Positions 19,534-33,649 of a DNA stretch of 34,109 bases are shown one piece after another. The notes beneath the pieces are model-generated. The model was given only the letters and a program-made list of their open reading frames with translations. It was not told where the DNA came from and searched no databases. Positions within the stretch are counted from its first letter, which is position 1. Every line of letters starts with the position of its first letter. The DNA comes from a virus. Location: the IMG/VR virus record IMGVR_UViG_3300024346_000269, positions 1-34,109 of that record. The stretch is one strand, 5' to 3'. Position numbers and translations under genes: made by a program.

Positions 19534-19758
19534 ATGGAAAAGAAAGAGTTTGCTAAAGGAATTTTTATTACAGAGAAAACAAGTAAAAGCGGAATCATTT
19601 ACTTAGACATTAACATTGCAGCCGATGGAGGCTATAAGAAGTATGTTGCATTTAAAGGCACTAAAGAGGGCAAATACGGAGGTTTAATGTATTCAGTATA
19701 TGATAAGACAGAAAAAGAAACAAGCACCGCTAATGAGTCTAAAAATCTACCATTCTAA
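19534..19758 (+). CDS. Small beta-rich protein, possible nucleic-acid-binding
   Basis: 74 residues: N-terminal strands (KGIFITEKTSKSGIIYLDIN), a Gly/Tyr/Lys loop (DGGYKKYVAFKG) and an acidic tail ending NLPF. The acidic tail with a terminal Pro-Phe recalls the C-terminal tip of single-strand-binding proteins, which recruits partner proteins. It lies between the ERF group and a DnaA-like gene, so an SSB-like or SSB-partner role is plausible. The chain is too short for a full SSB OB fold, so this is a tentative reading. Overlaps the next start by 1 nt. Confidence 0.5.
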   Translation: MEKKEFAKGIFITEKTSKSGIIYLDINIAADGGYKKYVAFKGTKEGKYGGLMYSVYDKTEKETSTANESKNLPF

Positions 19759-20147
19759 TGAGAGTTGAACAAATACAAAGTATAATTGAAAGCCATAAAT
19801 TATTAATCAAAAGACTGGAAAAAATGATTAAGGCAAGTCCTATAAGAAAGCGAGATTTTACTTGCTTGGTTGAGAATATAATTGAAGAAGTTAACCGAGA
19901 GTTTAAGGTTAATTGTACCGAGCAAACACGCAAGAAATCAATCGTTTATGCAAGGCACGCAGCAAGTTATTTGCTAAAGAAACATACTAATTTAATTTGG
20001 TTAGAAATAGCAACTACTTGTGGAAATACAGACCATTCAACCGCTATGAATAGCTACAGAACCTGTATAGACTTAATGGCAACAGATGAAGACTACGCTA
20101 TTTCTGTAAATAATATTATAAATAGGTTGAAAGTCTTAGAAAATTAG
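19758..20147 (+). CDS. Free-standing DnaA domain IV protein
   Basis: 129 residues. An N-terminal helical part (1-35, Lys-rich) precedes residues 40-115, which match the DNA-binding domain IV of DnaA: NREFKVNCTEQTRKKSIVYA (with helices), then HTH residues TCGNTDHSTAMNSYR (88-102), where the GNTDHSTAMNS part is the DnaA signature. There is no AAA+ ATPase part. It might recognise DnaA boxes or a phage origin without ATP hydrolysis, either loading a partner at the origin or competing with host DnaA. It ends just before the promoter and structured RNA at 20127-20247. Confidence 0.8.
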   Translation: MRVEQIQSIIESHKLLIKRLEKMIKASPIRKRDFTCLVENIIEEVNREFKVNCTEQTRKKSIVYARHAASYLLKKHTNLIWLEIATTCGNTDHSTAMNSYRTCIDLMATDEDYAISVNNIINRLKVLEN

Positions 20148-20157
20148 TTTATATTTG
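20127..20157 (+). promoter_or_regulatory. Promoter driving the structured RNA / replication genes
   Basis: TTG at 20127-20129 and TATATTTG at 20150-20157, 20 nt apart, match the Bacteroidota promoter pattern well. The -33 part lies in the end of the DnaA-like gene. The predicted start (about 20162-20165) coincides with the 5' arm of the first hairpin of the RNA. Confidence 0.7.
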
Positions 20158-20161
20158 ATAC

Positions 20162-20247
20162 ATGAAGGGTTCAGACTTCATATTATTAACTTATTTTATT
20201 CCTAATGGGGGGCGGTGCTGAACAACCAATCCTCATTAGGTTTTTTG
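20162..20247 (+). ncRNA. Structured RNA with kissing hairpin loops, ending in a terminator
   Basis: Hairpin 1: ATGAAG (20162-20167) with CTTCAT (20176-20181), 8-nt loop GGTTCAGA. Hairpin 2: CCTAATGGGG (20201-20210) with CCTCATTAGG (20231-20240), ten pairs with one wobble, inner GGT/ACC (20214-20216, 20225-20227) closing an 8-nt loop GCTGAACA. Loop 1 bases GTTCAG (20169-20174) are fully complementary to loop 2 bases CTGAAC (20218-20223), so the loops could kiss with six pairs. Six T follow (20241-20246), making hairpin 2 a terminator. Predicted transcript about 85 nt from the promoter just upstream. It could be a free RNA or a leader that attenuates the replication gene at 20252. Confidence 0.7.
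20201..20246 (+). terminator. Terminator/attenuator at end of structured RNA
   Basis: Ten-pair stem 20201-20210 / 20231-20240 followed by TTTTTT (20241-20246). Lies 5 nt before ATG 20252, so the same hairpin both ends the RNA and controls read-through. Confidence 0.75.
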
Positions 20248-20251
20248 TTTT

Positions 20252-21013
20252 ATGGAACATCACTTTGATAAAGATATTGCTACTCAATACGGGGTTGATG
20301 AGGCTATAATGTTGAACCATTTAATATTCTGGATAGAAAAAAACAGGGCAAATAAAAGAAATTTTATAGATGGTTATCATTGGACTTATAGCAGTTATAA
20401 AGCGTTTACTGAAATATTTCCGTACTGGAAGGAACTTAAAATAAAAAGAATATTAGATTCTTTGGTAAATAAAGGTTTAATTTTAAGGGGTAACCATAAC
20501 AAAATGGGGTATGATAGAACCTGTTGGTATGCTTTAATAAATGAAGAATGCATATTTCAAAAACGAAATGTCCATATTTCAAAAATGAAAGATGGATTTA
20601 TCGAAAATGAAAGACCTATACCATATAATTTAACAGATAATATAACATATAATATAACAGAAATACAACTATCATTTTTTTCTTTTGAGTATGAGCAACT
20701 ATGGAAAGAATGGAATGAATACAAAAAGGCAGAATTTAAAGATACCTTTAAAACTAAAAAATCAGAGCAAGTAGCAATTAACCAGCTTCAAAAAATATCT
20801 GATAATGATATTGAAATTGCAAAAGAAATAGTAAATTTATCTATATCAAACAGATGGAAAGGACTTTTTAAAATTAAACCACTTAAAACCACTAATAATG
20901 CAAAATCAACTATTGACTATTACAAAGAACATTCAGAAAGAAACCTCAAATGGGCAAACGCTTGGGATGCAGCCGAAGGAAGACCACCTTTTTCTGGAAG
21001 CCAAGAAGACTGA
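20252..21013 (+). CDS. Replication initiator-like winged-helix protein
   Basis: 253 residues. The N-terminal 110 residues follow a winged-helix pattern seen in phage replisome organisers (HFDKDIATQYGVDEAIMLNH, a Tyr-rich YHWTYSSYKAF helix, then LDSLVNKGLILRGN). The middle (130-160) is a Ser/Thr/Asn-rich linker. Residues 165-220 are Lys/Glu helices with a WKEWNEYKKAEFK segment, similar to the C-terminal region of DnaD-like or helicase-loading proteins. Gene follows the attenuator, so its level may depend on the structured RNA. A transcription-regulator reading is possible but the context favours replication start. Confidence 0.6.
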   Translation: MEHHFDKDIATQYGVDEAIMLNHLIFWIEKNRANKRNFIDGYHWTYSSYKAFTEIFPYWKELKIKRILDSLVNKGLILRGNHNKMGYDRTCWYALINEECIFQKRNVHISKMKDGFIENERPIPYNLTDNITYNITEIQLSFFSFEYEQLWKEWNEYKKAEFKDTFKTKKSEQVAINQLQKISDNDIEIAKEIVNLSISNRWKGLFKIKPLKTTNNAKSTIDYYKEHSERNLKWANAWDAAEGRPPFSGSQED

Positions 21014-33520: not shown

Positions 33521-33570
33521 ACACCCTTGCTTATATAAAAGCAGAGAGAGATTACAAAAAGCAGAGTTAG
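32846..33570 (+). CDS. Tail assembly chaperone GT-like product (-1 frameshift)
   Basis: Predicted transframe protein of 241 residues: 192 from the 0 frame through the slippery site, then 49 in the -1 frame (open from 33289 to stop 33568-33570). The extension (IEYYGWQYCTKNVADHENIT, then ELPIIQYLNTLAYIKAERDY) has regular helix patterning. The required slippery heptamer is in phase at 33415-33421 with a stem-loop 15 nt downstream. Standard G/GT logic: a minority of ribosomes make GT, which links G to the tail tube. Its 3' end overlaps the tRNA-like element by 10 nt. Confidence 0.6.
33415..33421 (+). promoter_or_regulatory. -1 frameshift slippery heptamer A AAT TTA
   Basis: Codons GCA AAT TTA in the 0 frame give A AAT TTA in X XXY YYZ phase, the same heptamer used by Rous sarcoma virus. 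After slipping, AAA and TTT still pair with the same tRNAs. Confidence 0.65.
33437..33462 (+). other. Stem-loop downstream of slippery site
   Basis: GGCAATATT (33437-33445) pairs with AATGTTGCC (33454-33462), nine pairs with one wobble and an 8-nt loop GCACCAAG. It starts 15 nt after the heptamer, longer than the usual 5-9 nt spacer, so its role as stimulator is likely but not sure. Confidence 0.55.
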
Positions 33571-33645
33571 TGAAAGAGGCATACTGATGTCCATTTAGTA
33601 ACATTTCGCAGGTGCGAGAATATGGGTGCAAATCCCATACTTTGC
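33561..33645 (+). tRNA. Class-II tRNA-like sequence with enlarged anticodon loop
   Basis: Acceptor GCAGAGT (33561-33567) pairs fully (one wobble) with ACTTTGC (33639-33645). T8 A9; D stem GTG/TAC with loop AAAGAGGCA containing GG; anticodon stem GATGT (33586-33590) with ACATT (33601-33605); long variable arm TCGC/GCGA (33606-33617); T stem ATGGG/CCCAT with 7-nt loop TGCAAAT. So all arms are present. Odd points: the anticodon loop is 10 nt (CCATTTAGTA) instead of 7, T-loop position 55 is G, no encoded CCA, discriminator T. Shape is Leu/Ser/Tyr class; TAG (Leu) is one possible anticodon. It overlaps the GT stop by 10 nt and precedes a terminator. Confidence 0.6.
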
Positions 33646-33649
33646 TTTT

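Follow-up and report, generated by a model that had tools for sequence, protein, structure and literature searches.

What stands between a phage promoter and a replication initiator gene, when the short stretch that separates them can be folded into two hairpins with complementary loops, and how might it act on the gene that it precedes? This question is raised by an IMG/VR virus record, here analysed over its whole length of 34,109 bases (the window), which encodes a large terminase, an ERF recombinase and replication proteins, identified by Pfam and PHROGs; a tRNA-Gly (TCC) is located at 33560-33647, near the end of the record. An earlier note on this DNA had placed a promoter, two hairpins, a six-T run and the complementary loops within positions 20127-20246, and each of these elements was found at the coordinates claimed. 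The region comprises the following features:

19758-20147, + strand: upstream gene, a DnaA C-terminal helix-turn-helix protein of 129 aa (Pfam PF08299, E 9e-14)
20127-20157, + strand: predicted promoter TTG-N20-TATATTTG, a match to the Bacteroidota-type pattern, with the TAnnTTTG box at 20150-20157
20162-20246, + strand: RNA unit of 85 nt, from the predicted start to the end of the U-run (85 ungapped columns in six phages)
20162-20181, + strand: hairpin 1, stem ATGAAG (20162-20167)/CTTCAT (20176-20181), loop GGTTCAGA, from sequence and RNA folding
20169-20174, + strand: kissing strand 1, GTTCAG, exact complement of 20218-20223
20182-20200, + strand: A/U-rich linker of 19 nt, first bases ATTATTAA
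20201-20240, + strand: hairpin 2, outer stem CCTAATGGGG (20201-20210)/CCTCATTAGG (20231-20240), ten pairs with one G-U
20218-20223, + strand: kissing strand 2, CTGAAC, exact complement of GTTCAG
20241-20246, + strand: U-run of six T, completing a predicted intrinsic terminator; U-rich in all phage loci
20252-21013, + strand: replication initiator/DnaD-like protein of 253 aa (PHROGs 11233, 6493 and 678)
20552-20620, + strand: three 22-nt iteron-like repeats (ATATTTCAAAAAYGAAA) within the initiator gene, scoring above 100 shuffles
20617-20677, + strand: AT-rich tandem repeat 3′ of the iterons, candidate unwinding region

Inside its outer stem, hairpin 2 contains a 3x3 internal loop, then a 3-bp stem (GGT/ACC) and the loop GCTGAACA; five nucleotides separate the U-run from the ATG at 20252. 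Judged from the window sequence alone, the unit departs only moderately from chance. Its folding z is -3.6, while the TTG-N20-TATATTTG pattern occurs once in the window against 1.2 expected occurrences and is not significant by itself; a purpose-made descriptor (two hairpins, 6-nt complementary loops and a U-run) found 3 matches in 40 random single-strand windows, and about 0.15 chance matches per window are expected from it on both strands. The unit can be considered real because 14 other phage contigs repeat it with compensated loops, and the existence of a structured RNA family with a kissing loop is almost certain.

A protein search led to L001, a contig that has the gene as well and an RNA in which both loops are changed together. 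Viral contigs were then scanned for further relatives with sequence patterns and a protein profile, and a covariance model applied afterwards matched 14 loci, the window among them; L093, L106 and L134, whose RNA units are identical and were counted once, came from a hairpin 1 pattern, giving the window plus 14 others (15 replication-gene loci). The RNA is present in every relative, found via a 244-aa replication protein, whose contig spans the place (the L055 contig stops short of it), and the phage records searched whole contain one strong match each. The hairpin 1 pattern fits 77 places, most of them devoid of a loop partner; L138, with a chance loop complement and no hairpin 2, was rejected. 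An exact-pattern scan of genome contigs gave two matches, neither with a loop partner, and blastn of the RNA against phages and plasmids returned short chance matches or none. The flanking-gene DNA and the 244-aa protein had no match in the phage collection searched, in which the closest terminase matches have about 35% identity; a search of 395 genomes for the 244-aa protein was also empty, a result that carries no weight; these phages have no close cultivated relatives in that collection, and their promoter type suggests Bacteroidota as the host phylum. The earlier note knew of no named RNA family of this form, and the Rfam scans agree: Rfam 15 gave no match in the window at gathering score; with E allowed up to 10, the matches near the RNA were at chance level, and none fell on the RNA in the relatives or in L058. 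No kissing-loop phage RNA with a terminator in Bacteroidota was found in the literature searched, and the family is apparently undescribed.

The main evidence for the structure is covariation, the check that had been proposed with the original claim: stems and loop pairs are compensated across the related phages. Considering all the structure in 12 distinct sequences, 98.3% of 300 cells are paired and 11 of 25 pairs are doubly changed, with a covariation score of 0.391 compared to a shuffle mean of 0.136 and to values not exceeding 0.104 when slid. For the kiss alone, all 72 cells are paired, exclusively by Watson-Crick pairs with no G-U, double changes occur at four of the six pairs and the score is 0.712 (0.161 when shuffled); the kiss was absent from the alignment model, which consisted of the two hairpins and included loop consensus letters, so these counts are not favoured by a fitted structure. 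Pairing of the loops is thus kept by compensatory change, as expected for a kissing-loop RNA, and a loss of complementarity beside retained flanking genes was looked for in all the related phages, in each of which complementarity held. An RNA of about 85 nt whose loops kiss and which ends in a terminator of its own is therefore supported, the kiss by covariation, the promoter and the terminator by consensus. Six loop alleles occur among the phage loci:

GTTCAG: window, L003 and L013
TGTCCG: L001, L028, L032 and L048
AGTCAG: L046
TAGCCG: L049, L051, L052, L054 and L056
TAGCAG: L053
TGTCAG: L093, L106 and L134

Each of the six is a full match to its own partner only, one arrangement among 720 pairings, and the predicted cognate loop duplexes range from -8.3 to -11.9 kcal/mol, compared to no better than -7.5 kcal/mol for phage non-cognates. 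Little variation is seen in the stem of hairpin 1, which has one compensated change in L053, or in the bases that follow it; the linker measures 17-20 nt across the phage group, and the hairpin 2 stems covary among the phage loci; the internal loop, mostly 3x3 and larger in L052 and the L049 group, is purine-rich and unconserved in sequence. As DNA, the nearly invariant dyad ATGAAG-N8-CTTCAT lies over the predicted start and might also serve as an operator for a protein; the window and six related phage genomes each have a single copy of it.

Change in the loops outpaces that in the sequence around them. Between L001 and L013, 8 of the 16 loop positions are different, while the rest of the RNA is identical and the upstream sequence 91% identical (Fisher p 5e-5 for loops versus upstream), and L003 and L046, whose flanks are 97-98% identical, have 18 differences in the 85 RNA positions (p 4e-10); both p-values are optimistic, because positions are treated as independent and paired loop changes are not. 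The allele does not track the initiator type, two alleles are common to distant phages, and on the upstream-gene tree, many forks of which are weakly supported, the alleles require six changes. Such fast change hints, from the sequences, at self-specific sensing in trans, and it can also be neutral compensatory drift or recombination.

Some 1,300 distinct genomes, to which a Bacteroidales MAG had led, were searched with covariance models, and three more loci, all in bacterial genomes (L058, L151 and L152), were identified at E up to 5e-4 per genome, values that are marginal over hundreds of genomes. L058 was part of model R3, and its R3 score is consequently not independent, while its R2 match is. 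Complementarity of the loops lay outside the requirements of the model structure, and all three have it: GTTGCCG/CGGCAAC in L058, AGTGCAG/CTGCACT in L151 (hairpin 1 stem ATTCAG/CTGAAT) and CTGGCA/TGCCAG in L152 (stem GATG/CATC), the last being a type of match that arises in about 2% of shuffles. These loci are probable members of the RNA family, with three further kissing alleles, bringing the total to nine. The copy in L152 lies inside a prophage with terminase-like and portal genes, directly after the portal gene; downstream of the L058 copy come a small gene and an integrase-like gene, and the L151 copy is followed by small genes, of which two have matches among phage protein families. An ORF begins 12-19 nt past the unit in each of the three. 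Relatives of the gene downstream in L151 exist in Bacteroides and other phages, and the RNA was absent from the four such regions examined. About 600 nt from the RNA copy of L058, a match to the Acido-Lenti-1 RNA was detected (L058:2104-2150, minus strand; 29.7 bits, below the gathering score of 37). The original placement directly before replication genes thus holds for the 15 phage loci and does not extend to the distant copies, which precede other mobile-element genes.

What the RNA would do at the replication genes is suggested by its surroundings. A transcript map from flavobacteria places the TAnnTTTG box at -12 to -5 (PMC9723704); with this spacing, transcription in the window is predicted to start where hairpin 1 does, at 20162, in agreement with the start originally claimed. 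The distance from the first base of the box to hairpin 1 is 12 nt in 11 of the 15 loci and 13 nt in the other four, so that hairpin 1 begins at the predicted start or 1 nt later; the box is degenerate in L032 (TATTTTAG), in L048 and L052 (TATATTCG) and in L093 (TATCTTCG). On the other side, the unit is followed by the ATG after 4-6 nt in all 15 loci. The order of promoter, structured leader and terminator before the gene, with promoter and terminator assigned by consensus, is found in 15/15 loci. At least four unrelated-looking types of initiator N-terminus occur behind this constant arrangement: the first 450-700 nt of the gene have been swapped outright between phages that are about 90% identical on either side, and the junction coincides with the 3′ end of the RNA. 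The initiator N-terminal half can be described as an exchanged cassette (window 20252-20900; also L001, L003 and L013). Type-specific iteron-like repeats are contained inside three initiator types (genes of the window, L001, L003, L013 and L093), and the mid-gene iterons together with the AT-rich repeat form a candidate origin of the lambda-O type. The next gene of the replication region starts within the initiator gene, in another frame and with a 116-nt overlap (20898-21013), an arrangement recurring in relatives.

The favoured explanation, to which an even chance of being right is given, is that the unit serves a Bacteroidota phage as a kissing-loop attenuator, a structured leader RNA folded as a cis kissing-loop pseudoknot. 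Transcription would begin at hairpin 1; hairpin 2 and the U-run would act as an intrinsic terminator and free an RNA of about 85 nt, in which hairpins 1 and 2 would kiss via 6-7 Watson-Crick loop pairs. Between the terminator and the ATG there is no gap of promoter size, so the anatomy suggests that the initiator gene and its iteron region would be transcribed solely by readthrough past hairpin 2, and the leader would set the level of initiator and origin transcription; the initiator gene could instead use an unrecognised promoter inside the RNA. The kiss may tune termination, RNA stability or access to the start codon, and freed RNA copies might act in trans as competitors for the loops. By our estimate a linker of 17-20 nt can span the stacked helices, making cis pairing possible, and the sequence fits kissing in cis and in trans alike. 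Since the kiss joins loop bases only and is compatible with the terminator stem, the unit has no classical terminator/antiterminator switch. Control of replication cannot be the general function of the family, because the probable chromosomal copies in L152 and L058 precede non-replication genes. Among the roles first suggested for the RNA, which included a nuclease-resistant RNA, an attenuator for replication is the one that best fits the anatomy.

Next to the attenuator leader ranks a stand-alone phage sRNA, a doubtful but serious candidate, according to which the unit is a complete small gene whose RNA is made compact and stable by the kiss and acts in trans, either on a target in host or phage or via a protein, with the next ORF close merely from phage genome packing. 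Indeed, promoter, body and terminator are all present, the distant copies sit in differing contexts, and the near invariance of the hairpin 1 stem and the ATTATTAA tail in the main group resembles a protein or RNA contact. However, the next start codon lies at constant spacing, and the loops, which are the most exposed bases, vary between near-identical phages, making it unlikely that they read a conserved RNA target; furthermore, no second 8-nt loop match is shared among the window and six related phage genomes, compared as exact 8-mers. The same hypervariability, with loops always self-complementary, alleles mutually discriminating and independent of the initiator type, is what would be expected of a self-sensing RNA for copy number or superinfection specificity. 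This would be an extension of the attenuator: freed RNA would kiss loop 1 or loop 2 of nascent leaders in trans and alter termination, and phages with the same loops would control each other, those with other loops not. Both parts of such a scheme have parallels, as in IncK plasmids a single base change in RNAI alters compatibility and only loop positions matter (PMC10724649), and the CI RNA of satellite phage P4 blocks the replication operon through induced termination (PMC4825925). Self-sensing is nevertheless rather unlikely: with both kissing partners on one RNA, pairing in cis should win, the sequences are few and include the two alleles shared by distant phages, and no promoter for an antisense partner was found. 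Within about 350 nt, 14 of the 15 loci have no TAnnTTTG box, the only type searched, on the opposite strand, and L052 has an isolated one. Of the copy-number, antisense-like RNA put forward in the earlier note, a sense-sense version is thus possible, while the antisense form finds no conserved promoter box.

Still less probable is that the RNA modifies RNA polymerase, as HK022 put does, or that hairpin 1 is a protein operator, the kiss being involved in shaping only. Two hairpins lying right at the 5′ terminus of an early transcript and the nearly invariant ATGAAG-N8-CTTCAT dyad spanning the start site would suit this proposal; to our knowledge, however, put RNAs do not end in a U-run of their own as this unit does, and a DNA operator leaves the loop-to-loop double changes unexplained. 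A ligand-binding riboswitch of a new class is very improbable. Its two-hairpin kissing layout, two hairpins joined by a flexible linker with a loop-loop kiss, resembles that of the guanidine-II (mini-ykkC) riboswitch (PMC7544219), but the neighbouring genes have no common metabolic theme and Rfam gives no match; ligand sensing, another of the roles first suggested, is disfavoured because the loops change freely and the internal loop is not conserved. Hardly credible, finally, is a coding leader peptide (AUG AAG ...) in place of a structured RNA: hairpin 1 starts with ATG in the phage group and the codons read MK[GVE][SA]D[FI]I, but the ATG is missing in L058 and L151, loop changes are mirrored in hairpin 2, and the linker varies by 1 or 2 nt between loci, so that the peptide frames do not continue, a change of length by which this reading is largely refuted.

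Several known RNAs share some of these features. The phi29 prohead RNA (pRNA) also has two complementary loops on one molecule, which covary from phage to phage; it acts between molecules in the packaging motor, whereas the RNA described here lies beside replication genes and the window carries an ordinary large terminase. Lambda oop is a small phage RNA beside the initiator gene O, which carries the origin iterons inside; unlike the present RNA, oop is antisense and has no kissing pair. The loops of guanidine-II are conserved and bind guanidine, whereas nine loop alleles are present here. By layout guanidine-II is the nearest relative, and by working principle the ColIb-P9 repZ pseudoknot and P4 CI RNA. 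In the account of ColIb-P9 (IncI-alpha) given in PMC8383071, the leader of the initiator mRNA pairs over a distance into a pseudoknot (Asano and Mizobuchi 1998, cited there) located just upstream of the initiator ribosome-binding site; there the competitor is an antisense RNA and the regulated step is translation, and loop bases determine specificity in the related IncK plasmids (PMC10724649). For the phage RNA, by contrast, a search for an antisense gene found none, and hairpin 2 is a terminator. P4 CI is likewise a small RNA of a leader region, with complementary segments on the same transcript and termination before phage replication genes, but it is processed and pairs as an antisense with separate sites, seqA and seqC (PMC4825925), while both partners here are hairpin loops of one short terminated RNA; second sites of the CI type were not seen among exact 8-nt loop matches shared between genomes. 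Antisense copy control of the plasmid type found no antisense partner by TAnnTTTG boxes. Because an antisense partner, a second site and an Rfam match were not found, the phage RNA is not assigned to any of these three systems.

The finding adds a well-supported pseudoknotted RNA family, absent from Rfam, from phages of a phylum in which little is known of phage regulation. Lying between a promoter and an initiator gene with a candidate origin, it makes RNA control of replication in Bacteroidota phages directly testable. Loops that change fast, yet are always compensated, raise the question of whether phages have RNA compatibility groups like those of plasmids. In one speculative and rather improbable form, the released leader would count its own template by kissing nascent leaders with the same loops, as a sense RNA without an antisense gene; if this were true, Bacteroidota phages and mobile elements would carry loop compatibility groups that diversify like plasmid incompatibility. 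The natural alleles provide a ready-made set of discriminating loop pairs.
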